DNA of 64,000 nucleotides from Streptomyces sp. SCUT-3 (GTDB lineage: Bacteria; Actinomycetota; Actinomycetes; Streptomycetales; Streptomycetaceae), in NCBI RefSeq assembly GCF_014083985.1, contig NZ_CP046907.1, forward strand, positions 2,088,001-2,152,000, given 5' to 3'. The notes beneath the pieces are model-generated. The model had not been told where the DNA came from, did no database searches, and saw only the letters and a program-made list of their open reading frames with translations. Shown here piece by piece: positions 2,673-16,193 of the stretch (position 1 is the stretch's first letter; each line of letters starts with the position of its first letter). The translations under genes and the position numbers were made by a program.

Positions 2673-3740
2673 CTACCCCCTGGTCGCGGATGCACGTGCG
2701 GCTCCGGGCCGCGCCGTGGTGGCACTCTCCTCGGCGAAGTGGCAGGCGCTCTCGTGGGCGACCGGGGAGTCGGTGTCCTTGAACCGCTCCGGCACCGCCA
2801 GCAGCGGCACCTCGGTGGCGCACTTGTCCTGCGCCTTCCAGCACCGGGTACGGAACCGGCACCCCGACGGCGGATTCGCCGGCGAGGGCACGTCCCCGGA
2901 CAGGATGATCCGCTCCCGCCCCTCACGCGCCTCCGGATCCGGAACCGGCACCGCCGACAACAACGCCTGCGTGTACGGGTGCGTGGGATGGTCGTAGATC
3001 TCCTCGTCCGAACCGATCTCCACCATCTTCCCCAGGTACATCACCCCCACCCGGTCCGAGATGTGCCGCACGATCGACAGGTCGTGCGCGATGAACACGT
3101 ACGACAGGTCGAACTCGTCCTGCAGCTTCTCCATCAGGTTGATCACCTGCGCCTGCACGGAGACGTCCAGCGCGGAGACCGGCTCGTCACAGATGATGAT
3201 CTCCGGATTCAGCGCCAGACCCCGCGCGATCCCGATCCGCTGCCGCTGACCGCCCGAGAACTGGTGCGGATACCGGTTGATGTACTCCGGATTCAGCCCC
3301 ACCACGTCCAGCAGCTCCTGGACCTTCCGCCGCCGGTCACCCTTCGGCGCCACCTCCGGATGAATCTCGAAGGTCTCCCCGATGATGTCGCCCACCGTCA
3401 TCCGCGGGTTCAACGAGGTGTACGGGTCCTGGAACACCATCTGAATGTTCCGGCGCACCGCCTTCAGCGCCCGCCCCGACAGCTTCGTGATGTCCTGACC
3501 CTTGTAGAACACCTCCCCCGCGGTCGCCCGCTCCAGCATCATCAACAGCTTCGCCACCGTCGACTTGCCGCAACCGGACTCGCCCACGATGCCCAGCGTC
3601 TCACCCTGGTACAGGTCGAACGAGATCCCGTCCACGGCCCTGACCGCACCGACCTGCCGCTTGAACAGGATCCCCTGCGTCAACGGAAAGTGCTTGACCA
3701 GGTTCCGCACCTGCAGGACCGGCTCGCGTCCGTCAGTCAC
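2673..3740 (-). CDS. dppF: Peptide ABC transporter ATPase, DppF type (operon 1)
   Basis: 355 residues with Walker [10 protein letters not shown], signature [15 protein letters not shown], Walker [13 protein letters not shown] and H-loop FIAHDL, followed by the Opp/Dpp C-terminal domain (HPYTQALLSAVPVPDP, then [12 protein letters not shown]). It hydrolyses ATP with DppD to drive peptide import. It overlaps the dppD stop by eight bases. The central 1 kb (2726-3726) is nearly identical to dppF of the second operon, whereas the first nine residues and the last about 17 are unique to this copy. This points to gene conversion within the coding region rather than a whole-gene copy. Confidence 0.95.
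   Translation of the reverse strand: MTDGREPVLQVRNLVKHFPLTQGILFKRQVGAVRAVDGISFDLYQGETLGIVGESGCGKSTVAKLLMMLERATAGEVFYKGQDITKLSGRALKAVRRNIQMVFQDPYTSLNPRMTVGDIIGETFEIHPEVAPKGDRRRKVQELLDVVGLNPEYINRYPHQFSGGQRQRIGIARGLALNPEIIICDEPVSALDVSVQAQVINLMEKLQDEFDLSYVFIAHDLSIVRHISDRVGVMYLGKMVEIGSDEEIYDHPTHPYTQALLSAVPVPDPEAREGRERIILSGDVPSPANPPSGCRFRTRCWKAQDKCATEVPLLAVPERFKDTDSPVAHESACHFAEESATTARPGAARASATRG
2726..3726. repeat. Direct repeat copy A, about 1 kb, shared with 9945-10945
   Basis: This stretch aligns base for base without gaps (offset 7219) to 9945-10945. By eye I count about four substitutions in 1001 bases. It covers dppF from just inside the start to just before the stop. Flanking DNA on both sides is unrelated, so the ends of homology are sharp. 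Confidence 0.9.
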
Positions 3741-4788
3741 CGACGACCTCCTTCCAGAAGTAGCAGGCGCTCCGCCGTTCCCCGGGGACCCGGTACAGCA
3801 GCGGCTCGCCGACCCGGCACATCTCCCGCGCCCGGGGGCAGCGCGGGTGGAAGGCGCAGCCGGACGGGATGCGCGTCAGGTCGGGCGGCAGGCCCTTGAT
3901 CACACGGAGTTCCCGCCTTCCGGAGCCCGGGTGCGGGGCGGGGCCGAGGCGCGGGACCGAGTCGAGCAGGCCCTGGGTGTAGGGGTGCGCGGGCCGCTTG
4001 TACAGCTCGTGCACCGGGGCGGTCTCCACGATCCGGCCCGCGTACATCACCGCGATCCTGTCGGCGACGCCGGCGACGACGCCGAGGTCGTGGGTGATCA
4101 GGATCAGGCCCATGTCGTACTCGCGCTGCAGTTCCGCGAGCAGGTCCATCACCTGGGCCTGCACGGTGACGTCCAGCGCGGTGGTCGGCTCGTCCGCGAT
4201 GATCAGGTCCGGCTCCAGGGCCAGCGCCATCGCGATCATGATGCGCTGGCGCATGCCGCCGGAGAACTGGTGCGGGTAGTCGCCCACCCGCTCCTTCGCC
4301 GCCGGGATCCGCACCCGGTCCATCAGCTCGATCGCCCTGGCCCTGGCGTCCTTCCTGGACAGGCCCTGGTGCACCCGGAACATCTCGCCGAGCTGGTAGC
4401 CCACGCTCAGCACCGGGTTCAGCGACGACAACGCGTCCTGGAAGATCATCGCGATCTTCCGGCCGCGCACCTTCCGCCGTTCCTCGGGCGACGCCTTCAG
4501 CAGGTCACGGCCCCGGAAGAGGATCTCGCCCTTGGGGATCCGCCCCGGAGGCGTGTCCAGGATGCCCATGATCGCCTGAGCGGTCACCGACTTCCCGGAG
4601 CCGGACTCGCCGAGCACCGCGAGCGTCTCGCCCGCGCCGACGGAGTAGTTCACGCCGTTGACGGCCCTGGCCACGCCCTCGCGGGTGCGGAACTCCACGT
4701 GCAGGTCGCGCACCTCCAGCAGGGGCACGCCGCTCCCGTCCTCGACGCGCCGGCCGGTGGCGCCCGCGGTTCTCTCCGTAGTGGTCAC
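3733..4788 (-). CDS. dppD: Peptide ABC transporter ATPase, DppD type (operon 1)
   Basis: 351 residues. Walker [10 protein letters not shown], signature [15 protein letters not shown], Walker [13 protein letters not shown] and H-loop LITHDLG are all intact, as is the Opp/Dpp C-terminal domain with [12 protein letters not shown]. It pairs with DppF as the ATPase heterodimer on the cytoplasmic face of the permeases. The GTG at 4788 is chosen because it overlaps the dppC stop by four bases and because an upstream AGGAGGG sits at good distance; the frame stays open further upstream but over dppC. Long stretches match dppD of the second operon, with more differences than seen in dppF. Confidence 0.93.
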
Positions 4789-5756
4789 GTACGCCCTCCT
4801 CGGCGCAGCCTCGGGTCGAGGGCGTCGCGGACCGCGTCGCCCAGCATGATGAAGGCGAGCACGGTGGCGCTCAGTGCGCCCGCGGGCCACAGGAGCATGT
4901 GGGGGGCGTTGCGGACCTGGTCGGAGGCCTCGGAGATGTCGATGCCCCAGGAGACGGTGGGAGGCCTCAGCCCCACGCCGATGTAGGACAGGGTCGCCTC
5001 CAGCGCGATGCAGGTGCCGATGGAGACGGTGGCGACGACGATCACCGGGGCGACGGCGTTGGGGGCGATGTGCCGCAGCAGCGTCCGGGGCCCGGAGGCG
5101 CCCAGCGCCCGGGCGGCCAGGACGTAGTCGTTCTGCTTCGCGGTGATGACCGCGCCCCGGGCGATGCGGGCGGTCTGCGGCCAGCCGAGCAGGACGATGA
5201 GGCCGACGACGGACCACAGGGAGCCGTTCTCGACGACGGACAGCAGGACCAGGCCGCCGAGGATCACGGGGATGCCGAAGAACACGTCGCCGATCCGGGA
5301 GAGGACCGCGTCCGCCCAGCCGCCGGAGAAGCCGGCCAGCCCGCCGACGGCGGCGCCCAGCAGGGCGGTGCCGACGGTGGCGCAGACGCCGACGGCCACC
5401 GAGGCGCGGGCGCCGTGGACGGTACGGGTGTAGACGTCGCAGCCCTGGGTGGTGAAGCCGAAGGGGTGTCCGGGCGAGGCGCCACCCTGCGAGTCGGCCA
5501 GGTCGCAGTCGTAGGGGCTGTGGGTGGTGATCAGGCCCGGCCACAGGCTGATCACCACCAGGAAGGCGATCATGAGCGCGGAGACGACGAAGACGGGGTT
5601 GCGGCGCAGGTCGTGCCAGGCGTCGGACCACAGGCCCCGGGGCCGTCCCGGGGCGCCGCCGGTTGCCCTGCCCGACCCCCGGCCCGGGGTTCGGCCGGGG
5701 GCCGGGCCGGTGACGGTGAGGACTGTCGGGCCCGGGCGGGAGGTCGGGTCATACAT
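4785..5756 (-). CDS. dppC: Peptide ABC transporter permease, DppC type (operon 1)
   Basis: 323-residue inner-membrane permease. A basic/Pro-Gly-rich cytoplasmic tail of about 45 residues precedes the first membrane helix (FVVSALMIAFLVVISLWPGL). The periplasmic loop and a core of about five further helices follow. The binding-protein-dependent transport signature, which contacts the ATPase, is in the region RALGASGPRTLLRHIAPNA. It begins inside dppB (eight-base overlap) and ends overlapping dppD by four bases, so B, C and D are translationally coupled. Divergence from dppC of operon 2 is much greater than for the ATPases. Confidence 0.93.
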   Translation of the reverse strand: MYDPTSRPGPTVLTVTGPAPGRTPGRGSGRATGGAPGRPRGLWSDAWHDLRRNPVFVVSALMIAFLVVISLWPGLITTHSPYDCDLADSQGGASPGHPFGFTTQGCDVYTRTVHGARASVAVGVCATVGTALLGAAVGGLAGFSGGWADAVLSRIGDVFFGIPVILGGLVLLSVVENGSLWSVVGLIVLLGWPQTARIARGAVITAKQNDYVLAARALGASGPRTLLRHIAPNAVAPVIVVATVSIGTCIALEATLSYIGVGLRPPTVSWGIDISEASDQVRNAPHMLLWPAGALSATVLAFIMLGDAVRDALDPRLRRGGRT

Positions 5757-6672
5757 GGCGGATCCTCGGGTCCAGGACCGCGTAGAGCAGGTCGACGAGC
5801 AGGTTGGCGAGCAGGAAGACCAGCACCAGGACGGTCACGAAGCCGACGACGGTGGGCGTGTTCTGCCGCAGGACGCCCTGGTGGAGCTGGAAGCCGACGC
5901 CGTGGATGTTGAAGATCCGCTCGGTGACGACGGCCCCGCCCATCAGGACGCCCAGGTCGGCGCCCAGGAAGGTGACGACGGGGACGAGGGAGTTGCGCAG
6001 CAGGTGGTGGGTGACCACCCTGCGGCGGGGCAGCCCCTTGGCGACCGCGGTGCGCACGTGGTCGGTGCGGACGTTCTCCGCGATCGAGGCGCGGGTCAGG
6101 CGGGTGACGTAGGCCAGGGAGACCAGGGCGAGCACCAGGCCGGGCAGGAGCAGGTCGGTCAGCGACGCGTCGGTGGGGACGGCGGGGGCGACGAGGTTCC
6201 ACTCCACGCCGAGCAGGTACTGCAGCAGGTGGCCGCTGACGAAGGTGGGGACGGAGATCAGCAGCAGCGTGGCCGCGAGCACCGCGGTGTCGGCCCGGCG
6301 GCCGCAGCGCAGCCCGGCCGCCACCCCGAGGGCGATGCCCACGACCGTCTCCATCACGAGGGCGACCAGGGTCAGCCGGAGGGTGACGGGGAAGGCTTCG
6401 GCCATCAGCTCGGTGACCGGCCGGCCGTTGAACGCGGTGCCGAGGTCGCCGGTGAGGATCCCGCCCATGTGGAGCAGGTACTGCGTTCCCAGCGGTTCGT
6501 CGAGGTGGAGTTCGGCGCGGATGCGGGCGGCGGTGGCCGGGTCGGGGGCGCGGTCGCCGAAGAGGGCCGCGACCGGGTCCCCGAGGGCGTGCGCCATGAA
6601 GAAGACCAGGAAGGTCGTCCCGGCGAACACCGGCACCATCTGCAGCAGACGCCGTACGACGTAGCGGCCCAT
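5749..6672 (-). CDS. dppB: Peptide ABC transporter permease, DppB type (operon 1)
   Basis: 307 residues beginning MGRYVVRRLLQMVPVFAG, the classic first helix of DppB/OppB permeases, followed by the FMAHALGDPVAALFG loop and five more membrane helices. The cytoplasmic coupling loop contains AVAKGLPRRRVVTHHLLRNS. The ATG at 6672 has GAGGAG seven bases upstream and lies ten bases after the dppA stop. It forms the translocation channel with DppC. The C-terminal RIRHV overlaps the dppC start. Confidence 0.94.
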   Translation of the reverse strand: MGRYVVRRLLQMVPVFAGTTFLVFFMAHALGDPVAALFGDRAPDPATAARIRAELHLDEPLGTQYLLHMGGILTGDLGTAFNGRPVTELMAEAFPVTLRLTLVALVMETVVGIALGVAAGLRCGRRADTAVLAATLLLISVPTFVSGHLLQYLLGVEWNLVAPAVPTDASLTDLLLPGLVLALVSLAYVTRLTRASIAENVRTDHVRTAVAKGLPRRRVVTHHLLRNSLVPVVTFLGADLGVLMGGAVVTERIFNIHGVGFQLHQGVLRQNTPTVVGFVTVLVLVFLLANLLVDLLYAVLDPRIRHV

Positions 6673-6682
6673 GGAGGTCTCC

Positions 6683-8311
6683 TCAGGACTGGCCGTTGAC
6701 CGTGATCTGTTCGAAGACCGGGACGCTGAACGGGTTGAGCCGTACGCCCGAGACCCGCTCGGACCAGCCCGCGCTGCCGTTCTGGTACCACAGCGGCACG
6801 GCCGGCATGTCCTCGGCGAGGACCCGCTCCGCCTCCTGGAAGAGGCCGACGGCGGCGGCCGGGTCGGTCTCGGCGTTGGCCCGGTCGACGAGGGTGTCGA
6901 ACCTGCGGCTGCTGTAGCCGCCGTTGTTGGAGGAGGCGCCGGTGTAGTACAGCGGCTGGAGGAAGTTCTGGACCAGCGGGTAGTCCATCTGCCAGCCGGC
7001 GCGGAACGGGCCGGGCATCCGGTTGCCGACGACGCGGCTGCGGAAGTCCCCGAAGGTGCCGACGGGGGCGGTGACGCAGGCGTTCTCCTTCTCCAGCGCC
7101 TTGTTGATGCTGTGGCAGACCGCGTCCACCCACTGCCGGTGGGAGCCGGTGTCGGTATTGGTGGTGATGGTCATCCGCCCTCCGGGGATACCGCCGCCGG
7201 CGGCGACCAGTTTCCTGGCCGCGGCAGGGTCGTAGTCGCAGGCGTCCCCGCACAGGCCGGGCCGGTGCCCGCCGTCGCGGCCGAGGACCGGCGAGGTCCA
7301 GTCGGTGGCGGGGACGCGGGTCCCGGCGAAGATCTGCCGGGTGATCGTCTCGCGGTCGATCGCGCGGGAGATGCCGCGGCGCACCTTCTCGGCGCCCTCG
7401 GCGTTCCACTCCTCGCGGTAGAGGGGGAAGACGAGGGTCTGGATGATGCCGGCGGGCTGGTCGACGTACCGGCCGGCCAGGTCGGACTCGGCGTTGCGGA
7501 GCCGGCTCGCCGGGACGTCGTCGACGACGTCGAGGTTGCCGGCCTGCAGGTCGGTGTAGGCGGAGACGTTGTCGGTGTACACGCGCAGGTCCACCCCGTC
7601 GTTGGCGGCGCGGTCGTCGCCGGGGTAGTCGGGATCGGGGCGCAGTCTCATCACCGAGCCGCGTTCGTAGGACTCGACCCGGTAGGGGCCGTTGCCGACG
7701 GGCCTGGCCAGCCAGGCGTCGTGGTCGTCGAAGAACGCCCGGGGCAGGGGGGCGAAGGCGGGGTAGCCGAGGGTGTCGGGCCAGCCGGAGAACTTCTGGC
7801 TCAGCCGGACCCGGAAGGTGCGCCCGTCGATCCGGGTGAGGCCGGAGAGCTTCTTCGCGCGGGGCCGGCCGGACTCGGGGTGGACCTGCTCGTACCCCTC
7901 GACGTACTGGAAGAAGTAGGAGTTGACCTGCTTGTTGTCGACCAGGGCGCCGTAGTTCCAGGCGTCGAGGAAGGAGTCCGCGGTGACCTCCTCCCCGTTG
8001 GAGAAGGTCCAGCCGTCCTTGATCCTGACGGTGAAGGTCTGCGAGTCCTCGGTCTCGATCGACTCGGCCAGCATGTTCTCGGCCCTGCCGGTGACCGGGT
8101 CGTAGCGCTTGAGGCCGCGGAAGATCATGTCGAGGACCTTGCCGCCCTGCACCTCGTTGGTGTTGGCCGGTTCGAGGGGGTTCTGGGGGTCGCCCCAGGA
8201 GGCCCGGACCACGCCCTCGGTGTCCGCCGCGCTCCCCCCGCCGCAGGCGGCGGCCGCCACGGCGAGGGCGGCGGCGGTCGCGGCCCGTGCGGCTCGCGCG
8301 GTCGCGCTCAT
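6683..8311 (-). CDS. dppA: Peptide-binding lipoprotein, DppA/OppA type (operon 1)
   Basis: 542-residue SBP_bac_5 family protein that captures peptides outside the membrane. The first residues MSATARAARAATAAALAV lead to a lipobox ending AAAAC, so it is a predicted lipoprotein. Family landmarks include the PVGNGPYRVESYE segment and a C-terminal MPAVPLWYQNG. The gene is first of operon dppA-B-C-D-F-pfkB. Its native Shine-Dalgarno has been separated from it by the tnpB element at 8312-9698, which abuts the ATG directly; the present leader reads AAAGGA-six bases-ATG and comes from the element. Expression may therefore be changed or lost. A longer open frame upstream runs through the insertion and is not real. 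Confidence 0.92.
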   Translation of the reverse strand: MSATARAARAATAAALAVAAAACGGGSAADTEGVVRASWGDPQNPLEPANTNEVQGGKVLDMIFRGLKRYDPVTGRAENMLAESIETEDSQTFTVRIKDGWTFSNGEEVTADSFLDAWNYGALVDNKQVNSYFFQYVEGYEQVHPESGRPRAKKLSGLTRIDGRTFRVRLSQKFSGWPDTLGYPAFAPLPRAFFDDHDAWLARPVGNGPYRVESYERGSVMRLRPDPDYPGDDRAANDGVDLRVYTDNVSAYTDLQAGNLDVVDDVPASRLRNAESDLAGRYVDQPAGIIQTLVFPLYREEWNAEGAEKVRRGISRAIDRETITRQIFAGTRVPATDWTSPVLGRDGGHRPGLCGDACDYDPAAARKLVAAGGGIPGGRMTITTNTDTGSHRQWVDAVCHSINKALEKENACVTAPVGTFGDFRSRVVGNRMPGPFRAGWQMDYPLVQNFLQPLYYTGASSNNGGYSSRRFDTLVDRANAETDPAAAVGLFQEAERVLAEDMPAVPLWYQNGSAGWSERVSGVRLNPFSVPVFEQITVNGQS

Positions 8312-8438
8312 CTGTGGTCCTTTCGTGGACCCCCGTCCTTCAGGGCGGGGAGGAAACGAAACCCCTGCGGAGCAGGGCAAGGAAAGCCGGTTCGCCGCCA
8401 GGGCGGACCGGCGTCCACCCCCGGCCGGTCGCAGCCCG

Positions 8439-8464
8439 TCACAAATTGATGCGGTAATTTGTGA
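8439..8464. promoter_or_regulatory. Perfect 9-bp dyad in front of tnpB
   Basis: TCACAAATT, eight bases, AATTTGTGA: an AT-rich perfect inverted repeat in a GC-rich element, ending three bases before the tnpB GTG. It could be a protein operator or an RNA hairpin that hides the start. No regulator is identified. Confidence 0.55.
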
Positions 8465-8467
8465 ACC

Positions 8468-9664
8468 GTGAAGACCGTCCATGTGAAGCGGGCGTTCAAG
8501 TACCGCTTCTATCCGACCGATGCGCAGGCAGCCGAGCTGTCCCGCACGTTCGGCTGCGTGCGGAAGGTCTACAACCTGGCCCTTGCGGCGCGCACGGAGG
8601 CGTGGACACGACAGGAACGGGTGAACTACAACCAGACGTCGGCGATGCTGACGGCCTGGAAGAAGACCGAGGAACTCGCTTACCTCAACGACGTCTCCTC
8701 CGTGCCGCTCCAGCAGGCCCTCCGGCACCTCCAGGCGGCGTTCGCCAACTTCTTCGGCCAGAGGGCCGCGTACCCGCGTTTCAAGTCGCGGAAGAAGTCG
8801 CGGAAGTCGGCGGAGTACACCACCAGCGCGTTCCGGTTCCGGGACGGCGGGCTGACCCTGGCGAAGATGGCGGAACCGCTCGACATCGCCTGGTCCCGCG
8901 AGCTTCCCGAGGGCGCGTCGCCGTCCACGGTGACGGTGTCGCAGGACGCGGCCGGACGCTGGTACGTGTCCCTGCTGTGCGAGGACCCCTCCGTCCAGCC
9001 GTACCCGGCCACGGACACGGCCGTCGGCATCGACGCCGGACTCGACCACCTGCTGACCCTCTCCACCGGGGAGAAGGTCTCCAACCCCCGGCACGAGCGG
9101 CGTGACCGCGCGCGCCTGGCCAAGGCCCAGCGAAAGCTCGCCCGCAAGGCCGAGGGCGACGGCGCGAACCGGGCCAGGGCGCGCCGGAAGGTCGCCAAGG
9201 TCTACGCCCGCATCGCCGACCGCAGGCGTGACCACCTGCACAAGCTCACCACTCGACTCGTTCGTGAGAACCAAACGATCGTGATCGAGGACCTGGCCGT
9301 TCGGAACATGGTCAAGAACGGCAAGCTGGCCAGGGCCATCAGCGATGCGGCCTGGTCGGAGTTCCGGAGCATGCTGGAGTACAAGGCTCGGTGGTACGGC
9401 CGCGAAGTGATCGCGATCGACCGCTGGTTCCCCTCCTCCAAGCTGTGCTCCGCCTGCGGCAGCCTGCGGGAGGGGATGCCGCTGAACGTCCGCGTGTGGA
9501 CGTGCGACTGCGGGACGACCCACGACCGGGACGTGAACGCGGCGAAGAACATTCTGGCCGTCGGGCTGACGGCGTCCGTCTGTGGAGCTGGTGTAAGACC
9601 TCAACGGAGAACTCCGGGCGGGCAGTCGGCGATGAAGCAGAAACCCCCACGGCGCGAGCCGTAG
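8468..9664 (+). CDS. tnpB: TnpB RNA-guided nuclease (OrfB of IS605 family)
   Basis: 398 residues. An N-terminal helix-turn-helix/REC-like part (VKRAFKYRFYPTDAQAAEL, about 1-170) is followed by the RuvC nuclease: Asp189 in VGIDAGLD, Glu274 in IVIEDLAV and Asp355 in HDRDVNAAKNI. A zinc ribbon (Cys327, Cys330, Cys346, Cys348) is inserted before the last acidic residue. All catalytic residues are present, so it should be an active omega-RNA-guided DNA nuclease, not a nuclease-dead regulator. The basic C-terminal tail overlaps the right-end RNA region. The GTG start at 8468 gives the family-typical MKTVHVKRAFKYRFYPT opening; there is no clear Shine-Dalgarno. Confidence 0.93.
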   Translation: MKTVHVKRAFKYRFYPTDAQAAELSRTFGCVRKVYNLALAARTEAWTRQERVNYNQTSAMLTAWKKTEELAYLNDVSSVPLQQALRHLQAAFANFFGQRAAYPRFKSRKKSRKSAEYTTSAFRFRDGGLTLAKMAEPLDIAWSRELPEGASPSTVTVSQDAAGRWYVSLLCEDPSVQPYPATDTAVGIDAGLDHLLTLSTGEKVSNPRHERRDRARLAKAQRKLARKAEGDGANRARARRKVAKVYARIADRRRDHLHKLTTRLVRENQTIVIEDLAVRNMVKNGKLARAISDAAWSEFRSMLEYKARWYGREVIAIDRWFPSSKLCSACGSLREGMPLNVRVWTCDCGTTHDRDVNAAKNILAVGLTASVCGAGVRPQRRTPGGQSAMKQKPPRREP

Positions 9665-9718
9665 GAATCCCCCTCCTTCAGGAGGGAGAGGAAGTCAAGG
9701 AGTGCCTCCTCGGAACCC
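9565..9718 (+). ncRNA. Candidate omega RNA (reRNA) of TnpB with guide
   Basis: The 3' end of tnpB and the right end form the expected scaffold. Conserved-looking TGTGGAGCTGGTGTAAGACC is followed by hairpins ACGGC-GCGA-GCCGT and CCCTCC-TTCA-GGAGGG, then GAAGTCAA at 9698. Host DNA from 9699 would be the guide; its first bases, GGAGTGCCTCCTCGG, are the complement of the displaced dppA ribosome-binding site. The 5' limit is approximate. The RNA is inferred from family knowledge, not seen directly. Confidence 0.6.
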
Positions 9719-9852
9719 GCCGGGCCTGCCGGGCCCGGACGACACCCCACGATGTGCCACGCGCCGCGCGGACCGTGCCGTACACGCGGGCCGGGCGCGA
9801 GAAACCCCCCGGGAACCCCCCTGTTGCCGGATCCGCCCGCACCCGGAAAGGG

Positions 9853-9896
9853 GACAGGGCGCGCCCCGGACCTCGTGGTCCGGGGCGCGCCCTGTC
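9853..9896. terminator. Perfect 20-bp hairpin, terminator of dpp operon 2
   Basis: Arms 9853-9872 and 9877-9896 pair perfectly around a TCGT loop. It lies 26 bases beyond the dppF stop (minus strand). No T-run, as common in high-GC actinobacteria. Confidence 0.8.
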
Positions 9897-9921
9897 GGGT
9901 TGTGGGCCCGGGGAAAGCTGC

Positions 9922-11082
9922 CTACGCCGCGTGGACCACGTCCTTCTCCTCGGCGAAGTGGCAGGCGCTCTCGTGGGCGACCGGGGAGTCGGTGTCCTTG
10001 AACCGCTCCGGCACCGCCAGCAGCGGCACCTCGGTGGCGCACTTGTCCTGCGCCTTCCAGCACCGGGTACGGAACCGGCACCCCGACGGCGGATTCGCCG
10101 GCGAGGGCACGTCCCCGGACAGGATGATCCGCTCCCGCCCCTCACGCGCCTCCGGATCCGGAACCGGCACCGCCGACAACAACGCCTGCGTGTACGGGTG
10201 CGTGGGATGGTCGTAGATCTCCTCGTCCGAACCGATCTCCACCATCTTCCCCAGGTACATCACCCCCACCCGGTCCGAGATGTGCCGCACGATCGACAGG
10301 TCGTGCGCGATGAACACGTACGACAGGTCGAACTCGTCCTGCAGCTTCTCCATCAGGTTGATCACCTGCGCCTGCACGGAGACGTCCAGCGCGGAGACCG
10401 GCTCGTCACAGATGATGATCTCCGGATTCAGCGCCAGACCCCGCGCGATCCCGATCCGCTGCCGCTGACCGCCCGAGAACTGGTGCGGATACCGGTTGAT
10501 GTACTCCGGATTCAGCCCCACCACGTCCAGCAGCTCCTGGACCTTCCGCCGCCGGTCACCCTTCGGCGCCACCTCCGGATGAATCTCGAAGGTCTCCCCG
10601 ATGATGTCGCCCACCGTCATCCGCGGGTTCAACGAGGTGTACGGGTCCTGGAACACCATCTGAATGTTGCGGCGCACCGCCTTCAGCGCCCGCCCCGACA
10701 GCTTCGTGATGTCCTGACCCTTGTAGAACACCTCCCCCGCGGTCGCCCGCTCCAGCATCATCAACAGCTTCGCCACCGTCGACTTGCCGCAACCGGACTC
10801 GCCCACGATGCCCAGCGTCTCACCCTGGTACAGGTCGAACGAGATCCCGTCCACGGCCTTGACCGCACCGACCTGCCGCTTGAACAGGATCCCCTGCGTC
10901 AACGGGAAGTGCTTGACCAGGTTCCGCACCTGCAGGATCGGCTCGCCGCGGTCGACGGGCGCGTCGAGTGCCACGACCGCCTCGGCCTCCGAACGGGCCT
11001 CCACGGTGTTCACGGCGGTGACGTTCGGAGTCTCGTCCACGGCGTTCCGTGCCGGCTCGTCCTTCTTGTCGAGCTCAGCCAT
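9922..11082 (-). CDS. dppF: Peptide ABC transporter ATPase, DppF type (operon 2)
   Basis: 386 residues. Motifs as in operon 1: Walker [43 protein letters not shown], and the Opp/Dpp C-terminal domain. A unique Ala/Glu-rich N-terminal extension of about 50 residues precedes the EPILQVRNLVKHF start of the ABC domain, and the C-terminus (KDVVHAA) also differs from copy 1. Between these, 9945-10945 is nearly identical to copy 1. The ATG at 11082 is chosen over upstream options because of GGAAGGAG nine bases upstream; it overlaps the dppD stop by eight bases. Confidence 0.94.
   Translation of the reverse strand: MAELDKKDEPARNAVDETPNVTAVNTVEARSEAEAVVALDAPVDRGEPILQVRNLVKHFPLTQGILFKRQVGAVKAVDGISFDLYQGETLGIVGESGCGKSTVAKLLMMLERATAGEVFYKGQDITKLSGRALKAVRRNIQMVFQDPYTSLNPRMTVGDIIGETFEIHPEVAPKGDRRRKVQELLDVVGLNPEYINRYPHQFSGGQRQRIGIARGLALNPEIIICDEPVSALDVSVQAQVINLMEKLQDEFDLSYVFIAHDLSIVRHISDRVGVMYLGKMVEIGSDEEIYDHPTHPYTQALLSAVPVPDPEAREGRERIILSGDVPSPANPPSGCRFRTRCWKAQDKCATEVPLLAVPERFKDTDSPVAHESACHFAEEKDVVHAA
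9945..10945. repeat. Direct repeat copy B, about 1 kb, shared with 2726-3726
   Basis: Partner of the repeat at 2726-3726, collinear at offset 7219 and in the same orientation. Visible differences are single bases, for example C/G at 3440/10659 and the Arg/Lys codon near the Walker A end. Recombination between copies would delete about 7.2 kb holding dppD1-dppA1 and the IS element. Confidence 0.9.
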
Positions 11083-12133
11083 GGATCGTCTCCTTCCAGA
11101 AGTGGCACGCGCTGCCGCGGCCGGCCAGCTCGGCACCGTCCCGTTCGGTCACGGGGTACAGCTGCGGGACGTCCGTGCGGCAGACGTCCTGCGCCTTGGG
11201 GCAGCGCGGGTTGAAGGCGCAGCCGGACGGGATGCGCGTCAGGTTGGGCGGCAGGCCCTTGATCGCGTAGAGCTCCTGGCCCTTCTGGTCCAGGCGCGGG
11301 ATCGAGTCGAGCAGGCCCTGGGTGTAGGGGTGCGCGGGCCGCTTGTACAGCTCGTGCACCGGGGCGGTCTCCACGATCCGGCCCGCGTACATCACCGCGA
11401 TCTTGTCCGCGACGTCGGCGACGACGCCGAGGTCGTGGGTGATCAGGATCAGGCCCATGTTGTACTCGCGCTGCAGTTCCGCGAGCAGGTCCATGACCTG
11501 GGCCTGCACGGTGACGTCCAGCGCGGTGGTCGGCTCGTCCGCGATGATCAGGTCCGGCTCCAGGGCCAGCGCCATCGCGATCATGATGCGCTGGCGCATG
11601 CCGCCGGAGAACTGGTGCGGGTAGTCGCCCACCCGCTCCTTCGCCGCCGGGATCCGCACCCGGTCCATCAGCTCGATCGCCCTGGCCCTGGCGTCCTTCT
11701 TGGACAGGCCCTGGTGGACCCGGAACATCTCGCCGAGCTGGTAGCCCACGCTCAGCACCGGGTTCAGCGACGACAGCGCGTCCTGGAAGATCATCGCGAT
11801 CTTCCGGCCGCGGATCCTCCGCCGCTCCTCGTTGGACATCTTCAGCATGTCCTGGCCGCGGAAGAAGATCTCGCCCTTGGGGATCCGCCCGGGCGGCATG
11901 TCGAGGATGCCCATGATCGCCTGGGCGGTCACCGACTTCCCGGAGCCGGACTCGCCGAGCACGGCGAGCGTCTCGCCCGCGCCGACGGTGTAGTTGACGC
12001 CGTTGACGGCCTTGGCGACCCCGTCACGGGTCACGAACTCCACGTGCAGGTCGCGGACCTCGAGGAGCGGGCCCTCGAAGTCGCCGTCCTGGCGCGGCGC
12101 GGGAACGTCCGCTGTTTTGGCAGTGGTGGTCAC
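11075..12133 (-). CDS. dppD: Peptide ABC transporter ATPase, DppD type (operon 2)
   Basis: 352 residues. Walker [10 protein letters not shown], signature [15 protein letters not shown], Walker [14 protein letters not shown]-loop LITHDLG, C-terminal SGCAFNPRCPKA. The first about 20 residues (MTTTAKTADVPAPRQ...) are specific to this copy. Starts with GTG eleven bases after the dppC stop. The core is very like DppD of operon 1, in places identical at DNA level (around 11340-11780 against 4000-4440), but with more substitutions than the dppF pair. It acts with DppF in ATP-driven import. Confidence 0.94.
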   Translation of the reverse strand: MTTTAKTADVPAPRQDGDFEGPLLEVRDLHVEFVTRDGVAKAVNGVNYTVGAGETLAVLGESGSGKSVTAQAIMGILDMPPGRIPKGEIFFRGQDMLKMSNEERRRIRGRKIAMIFQDALSSLNPVLSVGYQLGEMFRVHQGLSKKDARARAIELMDRVRIPAAKERVGDYPHQFSGGMRQRIMIAMALALEPDLIIADEPTTALDVTVQAQVMDLLAELQREYNMGLILITHDLGVVADVADKIAVMYAGRIVETAPVHELYKRPAHPYTQGLLDSIPRLDQKGQELYAIKGLPPNLTRIPSGCAFNPRCPKAQDVCRTDVPQLYPVTERDGAELAGRGSACHFWKETIHG

Positions 12134-12144
12134 GTACGCCTCCC

Positions 12145-13101
12145 TCAGCGCAGCTTGGGGTCGAGGGCGTTGCGGACCGCATCGCCGAACATGAGGAACG
12201 AGAGCACCGTGACCGAGACCATCACCGAGGGGATGATCAGCACGTACGGTGCGTTGCGCAGCTGCTGCCGGCCCGTGGAGACGTCCACGCCCCAGGAGAC
12301 CGTCGGCTCGGCGAGTCCGACACCGAGGAACGACAGGGTGGCCTCCGCCGCGATGTAGCCGCCGAGCGCGATGGTCGAGACCACGATGATCGGGGCGAGC
12401 GCGTTGGGCAGGATGTGCTTCATCAGGATGCGCGTGGTGGAGGCGCCGAGCGCCTTCGCCGCGACGACGTAGTCGGCCTGCTTGATGGTGATCACCGAGC
12501 CGCGGGCGACGCGGGCGATCTGCGTCCAGCCGAGGAAGGCCATGGCCAGCATGACGACCCAGACGCTGCGCTCCTCGAAGGTGGTGAGGACGACCAGCGC
12601 GCCGAGCAGGTACGGGATGCCCATGAAGACGTCGGTGACGCGGGACAGCACGCTGTCGAGCCAGCCGCCGAAGTAGCCGGCGATCATGCCGACCGCGGTG
12701 CCGAGGACCGCGACCAGCAGGGTCACGCCGATACCGACCATGATCGAGGCGCGGGCCCCGTAGACGACGCGGGCGTAGATCGAGCGGCCCTGGCCGTCGT
12801 ACCCGAGCCAGTCGGCGGCGAAGAAGTTGCCCCAGTTCGGGGGCTGGAGGAAGTGCTTGGCCAGGTCGGCGTCGCGCGGCGAGGCGCTGGTGAACAGGCC
12901 CGGCGCCGCCGCGAGGACGAGCAGCAGCAGGATCAGCACGGCGGAGACCAGGAAGAGCGGGTTCCGGCGCAGGTCGTTCCAGGCGTCGGACCAGAGGCTG
13001 CGCGCCTTCGCCGAGGCCGGTGCGGCCTCGGTGGCGGCCGCGCCCGGTGCCGGGTCGGTCGCGACGGTCGTCTCGACCTTGTCAGCGGTCTTCTCAGGCA
13101 T
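12145..13101 (-). CDS. dppC: Peptide ABC transporter permease, DppC type (operon 2)
   Basis: 318 residues. A hydrophilic, Ala-rich cytoplasmic N-tail of about 40 residues leads to the first helix (FLVSAVLILLLLVLAAAPGLF). A periplasmic loop and about five more helices follow. The ATPase-coupling segment is AKALGASTTRILMKHILPNA. It overlaps the end of dppB by eight bases, exactly as in operon 1, which shows that the two operons share ancestry although the permeases have diverged. Ends NALDPKLR. Confidence 0.94.
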   Translation of the reverse strand: MPEKTADKVETTVATDPAPGAAATEAAPASAKARSLWSDAWNDLRRNPLFLVSAVLILLLLVLAAAPGLFTSASPRDADLAKHFLQPPNWGNFFAADWLGYDGQGRSIYARVVYGARASIMVGIGVTLLVAVLGTAVGMIAGYFGGWLDSVLSRVTDVFMGIPYLLGALVVLTTFEERSVWVVMLAMAFLGWTQIARVARGSVITIKQADYVVAAKALGASTTRILMKHILPNALAPIIVVSTIALGGYIAAEATLSFLGVGLAEPTVSWGVDVSTGRQQLRNAPYVLIIPSVMVSVTVLSFLMFGDAVRNALDPKLR

Positions 13102-14023
13102 ACCGGATCCTCGGGTCCAGGACCGCGTAAAGCAGGTCGACGAGCAGGCTGGTGAGGAGGTAGACGATCACGATCAGCGAGGCGATGCCCACGACCGTGG
13201 CGCCCTCCCTGCGGGTCAGGGCCTCGAAGATGGCGTCGCCGACGCCCTGCACGTTGAAGATGCTCTCGGTCACGATGGCACCGGTCATGAGGTTGCCGAT
13301 GTCGGTGCCGAGGAAGGTGACCACGGGGATCAGCGAGTTGCGCATCAGGTGCACGCCGACGATCCGGCCGCGCGGCAGGCCCTTGGCCACCGCGGTGCGC
13401 ATGTAGTCGGCCCTGAGGTTCTCCGCCATCGACGTACGGGTCAGCCGGGCCACGTACGCGAGGGAGAGCGAGCCCAGGACGATCGCGGGCAGGAACAGGT
13501 CGCCGATGCTCTCGGAGTCCTGCACCGTCGGCGTCGTCAGCTGGAGCTGGAACGCGAAGAAGTACTGCATCAGGTAGCCCAGCACGAAGGAGGGCATGGA
13601 GATCAGCACCAGCGTGAGGGTGAGCAGGCCGCGGTCGCGGACGGAGTCCGGGCGGAGGCCGGCGATCACACCGAGGCCGATGCCGACGAGCACCGTGAAG
13701 GTGAACGCGAAGAGGGTGAGGCGGATGGTGACCGGGAACGCCTCGGCAATGATGTCCGCGATGGGGCGCTGGCTCGCGATCTCGGTGCCGAAATCGCCCT
13801 GGACCAGGCCGCCCAGGTAGTTCGCGTACTGCTGCCAGATCGGCAGGTCCAGTCCGAGGTCGCGCCTGATGTTTTCGACCACGCTCGGATCGAACGCCTG
13901 TTCTCCCATGAGCGCCCTCACGGGATCACCGGGCAGGGCGTACATCATGAGGAAGATCAGCAAGGTTGACCCGATGAACACCGGGATCATCTGGAGCAGT
14001 CGTCGTGCGACATAACGCCCCAT
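13094..14023 (-). CDS. dppB: Peptide ABC transporter permease, DppB type (operon 2)
   Basis: 309 residues starting MGRYVARRLLQMIPVFIGSTL, with six predicted membrane helices, the MYALPGDPVRALMGEQAF loop and the coupling loop AVAKGLPRGRIVGVHLMRNS. The ATG at 14023 has GGAGG at seven bases; an in-frame upstream ATG lies within the 14076-14108 palindrome and has no ribosome site. It pairs with DppC to form the channel. Confidence 0.94.
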   Translation of the reverse strand: MGRYVARRLLQMIPVFIGSTLLIFLMMYALPGDPVRALMGEQAFDPSVVENIRRDLGLDLPIWQQYANYLGGLVQGDFGTEIASQRPIADIIAEAFPVTIRLTLFAFTFTVLVGIGLGVIAGLRPDSVRDRGLLTLTLVLISMPSFVLGYLMQYFFAFQLQLTTPTVQDSESIGDLFLPAIVLGSLSLAYVARLTRTSMAENLRADYMRTAVAKGLPRGRIVGVHLMRNSLIPVVTFLGTDIGNLMTGAIVTESIFNVQGVGDAIFEALTRREGATVVGIASLIVIVYLLTSLLVDLLYAVLDPRIRYA

Positions 14024-14075
14024 GGGTGCCTCCGTGTGGGGTAACTGCAGCCGGGGACCGTGGGGGAGACCCCCG

Positions 14076-14108
14076 TGCGGGCCCCATGGGGATCCCATGG
14101 GGCCCGCA
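14076..14108. terminator. 15-bp perfect hairpin between dppA2 and dppB2
   Basis: Arms TGCGGGCCCCATGGG (14076-14090) and its exact complement (14094-14108) around a GAT loop, inside the 188-base gap after dppA. It probably acts as a partial terminator or 3' stabiliser so that more binding protein than membrane components is made, as known for other binding-protein operons. Confidence 0.75.
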
Positions 14109-14211
14109 AGGCCGGGAAAGCCCCGGAGCGACGGTCCCGCGGCCTTCCGCCGCCGACCGGACGGCCGGCGGCGGACTGACGGCCGAGTGAGGGTGTGACC
14201 CGCAGGCTCGC

Positions 14212-15828
14212 TTACTTGACGCTGACCTGGGGCAGCTCGATGTCACCGTGGAAGTCGACGTTGACGTTGTCGACGTTCTCACCGTGGCCGCCGTTGATGC
14301 GGTAGTACCACAGCGGGATGGCCGGCATCTCCTTGACCAGGAGCTTCTCGACCTCCTGGTAGGCCTTCACGGCCTCTTCCAGGGACTCCGCCTTGTCGCC
14401 CTCGGCCATCTTGGCGTCGATCTTCTTGTTGGAGAAGCGGCCGTTGTTGGACTCGGCGTTGGTGTGGTACAGCTCCTTGATGAAGTTCACGTTGACCGGG
14501 TAGTCGGCCACCCAGCCGCCGCGGTACATCGACTTGACCTCGTCGTTGTCACGCGCCTCGAGGTCGGTGGCGAAGTCCGGCTTCGCGTCGCCGACGCAGT
14601 CCACACCGGTGGCGTTGCGGATCGACTCGCAGACCGCGGTCACCCACTCCTTGTGGCCGCCGTCGGTGTTGTACTGGATCCAGACCTTGTTGCCCGGGAC
14701 GCCGCCACCCTCCTTGATGAGGGCCTTGGCCTTCTTCGGGTCGTAGGTGAAGATGTCCGTGTCGAGCTCCTGGTTGCCCTTGACCTGCGGCGGGGTGAAG
14801 CTCGTCGCCGGGGTCCGGGTGTTGTTCAGGACGGTCTTCGTGATCGTGTCACGGTCGATCGCCATGGACAGACCCTGGAGGACCTTCGGGTCGACGTCCT
14901 TGAACGTCTTGGAGTAGAACGCCGGGGTCAGCGTCTGGATGGCCGCGTAGGGCTCCTCGATGGCGCCCTTGCCGAGGTCCTGCTTGTACTTCGGCAGGTC
15001 CGTCGGGCCGACCTGGCGGATGATGTCCAGGTTGCCGGAGACGACGTCCTGGTACGCAGCCTCGAGGGAGGAGTAGTTCTTGAACTGGATGCCCTTGTTG
15101 GCAGCCTTGTTCGGGCCCTTGTAGTCGTCCCAGGCCTGGACCTGGATCAGCTTCTTGTGGGTCCACTTCTCGAACTTGTACGGGCCGTTGCCGACCGGCT
15201 TCTGGCCGAACGCCTTCGGGTCGTCGTAGAAGACCTTCGGCAGCGGGGCGAAGGTGGTGTAGCCCAGCTTGTAGTTGAAGTAGGGGACGCGGTCCTTCAG
15301 CTCGACGGTGAAGGTGGTCTCGTCCACGACCTTCAGGCCGGACATCTTGTCGGCCTTGGGGTCACCCTTCTCCGGGTGCACGTCGTCGTAGCCGGCGATG
15401 TCGGCGAACCAGAAGGAGTTCTGCTGGTTGTTCTTGATGTTGGCGTACCAGTTCCACGCGTCGACGTACGACTGCGCGGTGACGGCCTCGCCGTTGTGGA
15501 ACTTCCAGCCGCTCTTGAGCTTGACCGTCCAGGTCTTCGAGTCCTCGGTGGTGACCGACTCGGCGTTGGTGTAGACGATCTCGCCCTTGGCGTCGAAGTC
15601 CAGGAGCTGCGTGAACAGCGACTGGATGACGTAAGAGCCGTTGCTCTCGTTGGTGTCGGCCGGGATCAGCGGCTTCTGCGGCTCGCCGACGTCGATCGAG
15701 ACGTAGCCGGCGGGCTTGCCCGAGCCCGTGTTCTTCTTGTCCTCGCCGTCGCCACTGCCACAGGCAGTCGCGGCCAGTGCGACGACAATCGCCCCCGCAA
15801 CGAACTTGGCGCTCTTGGCACCGCGCAT
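14212..15828 (-). CDS. dppA: Peptide-binding lipoprotein, DppA/OppA type (operon 2)
   Basis: 538-residue SBP_bac_5 protein. MRGAKSAKFVAGAIVVALA leads to the lipobox LAATAC, so the mature protein is a lipid-anchored receptor beginning CGSGDGEDKK. Landmarks are GEPQKPLIPADTNE, the KPVGNGPYKFEKWTHK segment and MPAIPLWYYR near the C-terminus. The ATG at 15828 has GAGGAGG at six bases; a TTG five codons earlier has none. It is first in dppA-B-C-D-F. Its leader is the intact counterpart of the interrupted dppA1 leader. Peptide specificity is unknown. Confidence 0.95.
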   Translation of the reverse strand: MRGAKSAKFVAGAIVVALAATACGSGDGEDKKNTGSGKPAGYVSIDVGEPQKPLIPADTNESNGSYVIQSLFTQLLDFDAKGEIVYTNAESVTTEDSKTWTVKLKSGWKFHNGEAVTAQSYVDAWNWYANIKNNQQNSFWFADIAGYDDVHPEKGDPKADKMSGLKVVDETTFTVELKDRVPYFNYKLGYTTFAPLPKVFYDDPKAFGQKPVGNGPYKFEKWTHKKLIQVQAWDDYKGPNKAANKGIQFKNYSSLEAAYQDVVSGNLDIIRQVGPTDLPKYKQDLGKGAIEEPYAAIQTLTPAFYSKTFKDVDPKVLQGLSMAIDRDTITKTVLNNTRTPATSFTPPQVKGNQELDTDIFTYDPKKAKALIKEGGGVPGNKVWIQYNTDGGHKEWVTAVCESIRNATGVDCVGDAKPDFATDLEARDNDEVKSMYRGGWVADYPVNVNFIKELYHTNAESNNGRFSNKKIDAKMAEGDKAESLEEAVKAYQEVEKLLVKEMPAIPLWYYRINGGHGENVDNVNVDFHGDIELPQVSVK

Positions 15829-16193
15829 GGGTTGCCTCCTCAAGAGGTTCTACATAGCCGAACGTGGAAGAAGCCCGGCCCCCGGCCCGCCACCCCTGAC
15901 GGACCGTCCGGTCTTCCGTGCTCGTTGAGTCAGCACCCCCCAAAGCGCGTGACCCAATTGACCCGAGCTCAACGGCTCCAACTATCGGGCACGTTCATCT
16001 GAATGAGCTACACCCGTAGGGTCTCGTTTTCATCACACCGGACGCGCCCAAGTCTCGAAATCCGGACAAACGGAACCAGACAGACAGCCACGAAACGGAC
16101 TGTTAACAGTGAGAGCGAACAGTGACGTCCGATATGCGGACGCAAGGTAACGGGGCGAATGCCCACCGTTTATGCGCGTAGAAAGGCGCATCC
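15829..16193 (-). promoter_or_regulatory. Leader and promoter region of dpp operon 2
   Basis: About 365 bases without a gene between the dppA start and the typA terminator. It is less GC-rich than the surroundings, as expected of a promoter region read on the minus strand. I could not settle on a -35/-10 pair; a GATAGT-like hexamer lies near 15980. No small gene was seen. Confidence 0.4.

Follow-up and report, generated by a model that had tools for sequence, protein, structure and literature searches.

A solo-tnpB transposon family found mostly at start codons, with a ribosome site in its left end: the dppA1 insertion of Streptomyces sp. SCUT-3

Known transposons and the insertion at dppA1

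Most insertion sequences cost their host fitness, either by breaking genes or by cutting genes off from their signals. Mobile DNA can also restore function to its target gene, as do Azotobacter group II introns at stop and start codons and tRNA-gene integrases. The right end of IS608 finishes in TCAA, and elements of the IS1341 type carry tnpB alone between IS605-like ends, presumably being mobilised by TnpA in trans. The subject of this paper is a complete solo-tnpB element of the IS200/IS605 kind in Streptomyces sp. SCUT-3. It is 1,387 bp long, carries no tnpA, and occupies positions 8312..9698 (+ strand) of a 64,000-nucleotide stretch of contig NZ_CP046907.1 (positions 2,088,001 to 2,152,000), here called the window. 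It lies, exact to the base, between the start codon and the ribosome site of the gene dppA1.

According to Karvelis et al. 2021 (PMC8612924), the TnpB of ISDra2 is guided by about 16 nt of the right flank, and the transposon-associated motif (TAM) that it needs is the insertion motif. The same paper proposes that, once the transposon has excised, TnpB cuts the joint that remains in the donor. The window element resembles ISDra2 and IS608 in having a TnpB with RuvC and TNB, subterminal hairpins, a predicted right-flank guide and no target duplication, and in being inserted 3' of a short, fixed sequence that doubles as TAM (PMC8612924). Its right end also finishes in TCAA, as in IS608. It differs in its TAM, which is TCAT rather than TTGAT or TTAC, and in the absence of tnpA. 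Furthermore, the left end of its family carries an outward-facing Shine-Dalgarno (SD) sequence, and about 70% of the insertions lie at opposite-strand start codons.

The subterminal hairpins, the lack of target duplication and the motif that is fixed on the 5' side of the left end place the element in IS200/IS605, and tnpB alone between IS605-like ends makes it IS1341-like. No Y1 TnpA is found inside it, the left end lying about 160 bp upstream of tnpB. What sets this family apart from the IS1341 type is the start-codon habit, with replacement of the ribosome site and the stop codon. IStrons, which combine a group I intron with an IS element, are reported to be likewise harmless to the target gene (PMC4227781). 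An IStron splices out of the RNA, whereas the element discussed here would stay in the mRNA and offer a new initiation site. No group I intron is among the Rfam matches over 7900-10000. The Azotobacter introns and tRNA-gene integrases use other mobility enzymes, and restore the gene by splicing or by copying the gene end.

Closer relatives exist in the same hosts. IS605 elements with tnpA, in the SCUT-3 genome and in related ones (L209, L287-L316), share the GTCAA ending and have a related TnpB, whose gene is in part 66% identical at the DNA level. They differ in their TAM (TCTAC), in having tnpA and in a left end without SD, and this clade serves as a control below. The window element itself occurs once in the 6.08-Mb host genome, where the next match is a partial one of 66% to another tnpB; many copies exist across the family Streptomycetaceae.

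With good confidence, these copies can be regarded as an actinobacterial IS200/IS605-type family of solo-tnpB elements that uses TCAT as target and TAM, is transparent to translation at start codons, and is held in place by TnpB. The insertion at dppA1 is one case of the family rule. This reading is drawn from sequence, namely from the ends, the TAM, the placement at start codons, the empty sites, the left-end SD and the restored stops. The elements belong to a known transposon family. The literature searched, which lacks many subscription papers, gave no account of insertion at start codons combined with a ribosome site borne on the element's end.

Ends, target motif and placement at start codons

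On the + strand, the left junction reads ...GCGCTCAT/CTGTGG at 8311/8312 (in longer form, ...GGTCGCGCTCAT/CTGTGGTCCTTTCGTGGACCCCCG) and the right junction reads GAAGTCAA/GGAGTGCC at 9698/9699 (in longer form, ...GGAGGGAGAGGAAGTCAA/GGAGTGCCTCCTCGGAACCC). Deleting 8312-9698 in silico yields CCGAGGAGGCACTCC-ATGAGC on the minus strand. The motif TCAT at 8308..8311 (+), the TAM and TnpA target, reads ATGA on the minus strand, where it comprises the dppA1 start codon and the initial nucleotide of the next codon. Downstream of the element, dppA1 (6683..8311, - strand, ATG at 8311) is an intact open reading frame for a lipoprotein-like SBP_bac_5 protein of 542 amino acids. The left-end structure (8321..8361, +) consists of an outer stem, TTTCG (8321-8325) with CGAAA (8357-8361), enclosing the hairpin CCCCGTCC-TTCA-GGGCGGGG (8331-8350). 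Across the family the outer stem covaries (CTTCG/CGAAG, CTCCG/CGGAG, TTTCG/CGAAA).

Relatives of the element were gathered with 1.5-4 kb of flank per side. When they are aligned, TCAT precedes the left ends and the right ends finish in GTCAA. With left ends located by an internal anchor only, so that TCAT was not required in the search, the motif stands at the expected place in 104 of 111 distinct left ends, against a chance rate of 1.6%; the base before it is not fixed. Streptomycetaceae bacterium MP113-05 has three 100% identical 1,388-bp copies at three sites (L129, L130, L182), each bounded by TCAT on the left and GTCAA on the right, where identity stops. Because these identical copies sit in unrelated flanks, they fix the element ends independently of alignment, and they give the same exact ends for the window copy.

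Since TCAT is ATGA on the other strand, the element tends to insert at opposite-strand start codons. Starts were called with a codon-usage score trained on 458 long open reading frames from the relatives' contigs, a start being accepted when the coding signal begins at the ATG and none lies just upstream. Of 120 distinct insertions, 83 are at opposite-strand start codons, whereas of the 1,790 other ATGAs that these flanks contain, 189 (10.6%) are called as starts (odds ratio 19, p 6e-47). A further 10 insertions lie inside genes and 27 elsewhere, where the background has 57% and 32%. The genes hit, named from recognisable N-termini alone, include glnK (twice), purE, hisH, nuoD, lpd (in three species) and a glucose-6-phosphate dehydrogenase.

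An alternative is that ordinary IS200/IS605 biology suffices: TnpA picks TCAT, insertions within genes are purged, the surviving TCATs are at starts, and the SD-like left end merely reflects a hairpin required by TnpA. Placement is indeed dictated by the TAM, and insertions within genes are depleted (10/120 against 57%). However, start codons are favoured over other non-genic TCATs too (odds ratio 9.4, p 9e-25). On this and the left-end evidence given below, the alternative is unlikely.

The age of the copies also bears on the question. Of 12 young copies, defined by near-identity to another copy in the same genome, 4 are at start codons, compared with 79 of 108 older or single copies (p 0.008; the young copies are few and from three genomes). 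A higher start-codon share among the older copies is expected if low cost lets insertions persist, and the difference suggests that start-codon insertions last longer than others. In MP113-05, all three copies look by eye like start-codon insertions, of which the classifier passes two.

The same start codon can be occupied in different species, as in glnK (L011/L025), lpd (L064/L069/L075) and a 6-phospho-beta-glucosidase-like gene (L004/L173). Elements sharing a start codon in this way differ by up to 22%; they are therefore old insertions or repeated hits.

Replacement signals at the two ends

The native ribosome site of dppA1, GAGGAGG, is recognised by its sequence and by orthologue leaders, and is displaced to 9705..9711 (-). 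The first-pass annotation of the window implied that the gene had thereby lost its ribosome site, and missed that the left end brings another: AAAGGA (8318..8323, -), 6 nt from the dppA1 ATG. On the host-gene strand the left end reads CCACGAAAGGA-CCACAG-ATG, and so GAGGAGG-CACTCC-ATG is exchanged for AAAGGA-CCACAG-ATG. Across the family, left ends on this strand have the form CCACGAAAGGA, CCACGAAGGAG or CCACGGAGG(A/T/C), which a short spacer separates from the ATG; the distance between AGG and ATG is mostly 5-9 nt.

Pairing of the 22 nt supplied by the element with the 16S tail (CACCUCCUUUCU) has a mean energy of -9.1 kcal/mol. For comparison, the means are -7.2 for displaced native leaders, -5.9 for shuffled left ends and -5.3 kcal/mol for random ATGAs. 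In the window, the new site scores -9.5 and the native one -11.6 kcal/mol. The control clade with TAM TCTAC has a left-end hairpin without an SD and reaches -2.8 kcal/mol, against -9.1 over the same 18 nt.

These results count against the SD being a by-product of the TnpA hairpin, as the sister clade has a left-end hairpin without an SD. The SD owes its GG to a CC dinucleotide that is conserved although it is mostly located at or beyond the stem's end, and conservation of the SD extends to three registers, with spacings of 5-9 nt.

The right end can replace a second signal. In host-gene direction it begins TTGAC (9694..9698, -, in the window), as in 115 of 120 family copies. Where the occupied ATGA is a stop/start overlap, this places an in-frame TGA at the end of the upstream gene; dppA1 is not such a case. 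At 21 sites, 20 of them in the start-codon class, the occupied ATGA doubles as the TGA stop of the upstream gene, and NN-A TGA is turned into NN-T TGA. For instance, at the purK-purE overlap ACC-GAA-TGA becomes ACC-GAT-TGA. The upstream frame therefore still stops at these overlaps. Instead of selection for stops, the cause may be the transposition chemistry, which requires TCAA and TCAT to be alike.

Taken together, four features suggest, with moderate confidence, a family adapted at both ends for translational transparency: settling at ATGA by way of the TAM, the left-end ribosome site, the right-end stop at overlaps, and a TnpB whose displaced-ribosome-site guide would keep the site occupied. 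As judged from sequence, the insertions are apparently harmless to the host gene.

Several observations weigh against this interpretation. Of the 120 copies, 37 are outside the start-codon class, some of them inside or between genes; several are probably start codons missed by the classifier, such as L130 and L161, where the gene encodes a signal peptide. Because of the homology among left ends, 120 copies do not amount to 120 independent tests. The SD-like stretch is partly within the covarying stem (CTTCG/CGAAG, CTCCG/CGGAG), an overlap that also speaks for the by-product explanation. A DNA structure needed for transposition may thus explain part of its conservation, and in mRNA the same stem could hide part of the SD. 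The element moves the native promoter 1.39 kb away. Finally, no cognate TnpA was found, either as the TnpA of the host genome or among the MP113-05 TnpA elements examined. A search of the left end for an outward promoter gave no sigma-70-like match, a test that is inconclusive for Streptomyces promoters.

Two other features were considered and set aside. An in-frame open reading frame of 973 amino acids, running from dppA1 back through the element, is due to chance, because in most relatives the frame is closed by a stop within 100 codons. The inverted repeat of AT-rich sequence that precedes tnpB (8440-8464) is not conserved, occurring in 1 of 120 relatives.

TnpB, its guide and the empty site

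The tnpB gene (8468..9664, +, GTG start) encodes a complete protein of 398 amino acids with Pfam OrfB_IS605 and Cas12f1-like_TNB domains. RuvC residues D189 and E274 and the HDRDVNAA motif are intact, and the best PDB matches among natural proteins, aligned over the full length, are TnpB (8h1j, 8bf8). An AT-rich TAnnnT-like box, present in related elements too, lies about 10 nt before the GTG (window 8440-8470) and suggests a leaderless tnpB transcript.

The right end (9564..9698, +) would provide the scaffold of the right-end RNA. It overlaps the 3' end of tnpB and finishes with a terminal hairpin (9671-9686) and GTCAA. A consensus fold directly before the flank is conserved in the family, and 11 of its pairs are preserved despite substitutions in both partners. 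Rfam searches of the element give sub-threshold matches only; among them are weak matches to HgcC at both ends (window 8287-8364 and 9585-9711). RNAs from IS605 ends may be among the members of HgcC, which is an RNA family of archaea.

Applying the ISDra2 guide position and length here gives the predicted 16-nt guide GGAGTGCCTCCTCGGA (9699..9714, +), which TnpB would use and which is the reversed dppA1 ribosome site. The sequence supports the first-pass annotation in its coordinates, in the type of element, and in placing the TAM to the left and the guide to the right. It had also proposed that the guide copies the dppA1 initiation region, and 9699..9714 is indeed the reverse complement of the displaced leader. 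In 29 dppA1 orthologues (62-69% amino acid identity), SD, spacer and ATG are continuous throughout, and five of them have exactly the reconstructed empty leader, GAGGAGGCACTCC-ATG. Empty sites are likewise continuous in relatives for purE (insertion in genome G063) and lpd (insertion in G107), and an interrupted-site query found no second purE copy in G063.

The first-pass annotation further argued that the nuclease is programmed specifically against the initiation site of a peptide receptor, and would act on any relative with an empty site. The guide does copy a strongly conserved leader, GAGGAGGCACYCC being widespread, and the dppA2 leader differs from the guide at guide positions 3 and 4 as described. 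All 29 orthologues, however, read ATGC or ATGT (GCAT or ACAT on the target strand), and dppA2 reads ATGC (GCAT). Because TCAT is thus absent from all of them, the expected targets are ATGA-start alleles only. Nor is the peptide-receptor gene special, since relatives of the element sit at the start codons of many unrelated genes. This view is therefore very improbable. TldR proteins are TnpB-derived regulators in which the catalytic RuvC residues and the transposon ends are lost. Although the position beside a peptide-transport gene would fit, it is still less credible that TnpB is domesticated as an RNA-guided, TldR-like repressor of the peptide transporter, as its RuvC D/E/D residues are intact, it aligns with active TnpB over its full length, both transposon ends are intact, and the host genome has no other TCAT-flanked guide site with up to two mismatches. 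With up to two mismatches allowed, TCAT plus guide matches this genome at a single place, the right flank of the element itself, which has TCAA in place of TCAT.

In the favoured reading of a translation-transparent family held by TnpB, the element would tend to insert where the leader of an opposite-orientation gene meets its ATG, behind the ribosome site, as TCAT is ATGA reversed. The mRNA would run through the element, and translation would then start from the element-borne ribosome site, making the insertion cheap for the host gene and hence persistent. After excision, TnpB with the right-end RNA would cut the empty site (TCAT plus displaced leader), as established TnpB biology predicts, and the copy would be restored by recombination because of the cut.

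Mobilisation would be by TnpA in trans. The only Y1 TnpA of the host genome belongs to a separate element and is an unlikely partner, because that element's TAM is TCTAC. MP113-05 has multi-copy tnpA elements of a third kind (L210-L216), whose ends are GTGACTCCTCCACCCC (left) and GAAGAGAGGGATGG (right). As a source of the mobiliser, the multi-copy TnpA elements examined in this genome were rejected, having other ends.

The element lies between two dpp gene sets, each for a peptide ABC transporter, which are arranged in tandem and share one orientation (window 3733-15843). A very strong G+C-rich hairpin at 9853-9896, between dppF and the displaced dppA1 leader, is probably a terminator or a boundary between the two clusters.

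If the favoured reading is true, it describes a general, gene-independent route by which a transposon can be tolerated, the start codon being the single codon at which a short end sequence can stand in for the signals displaced. Such tolerance would extend to biosynthetic genes such as purE and hisH, and would account for the choice of site and TAM in a large TnpB clade. The left end is predicted to act as a portable ribosome site. For TnpB tools, the survey defines a clade with a TCAT TAM whose natural guides would often be ribosome-site sequences.
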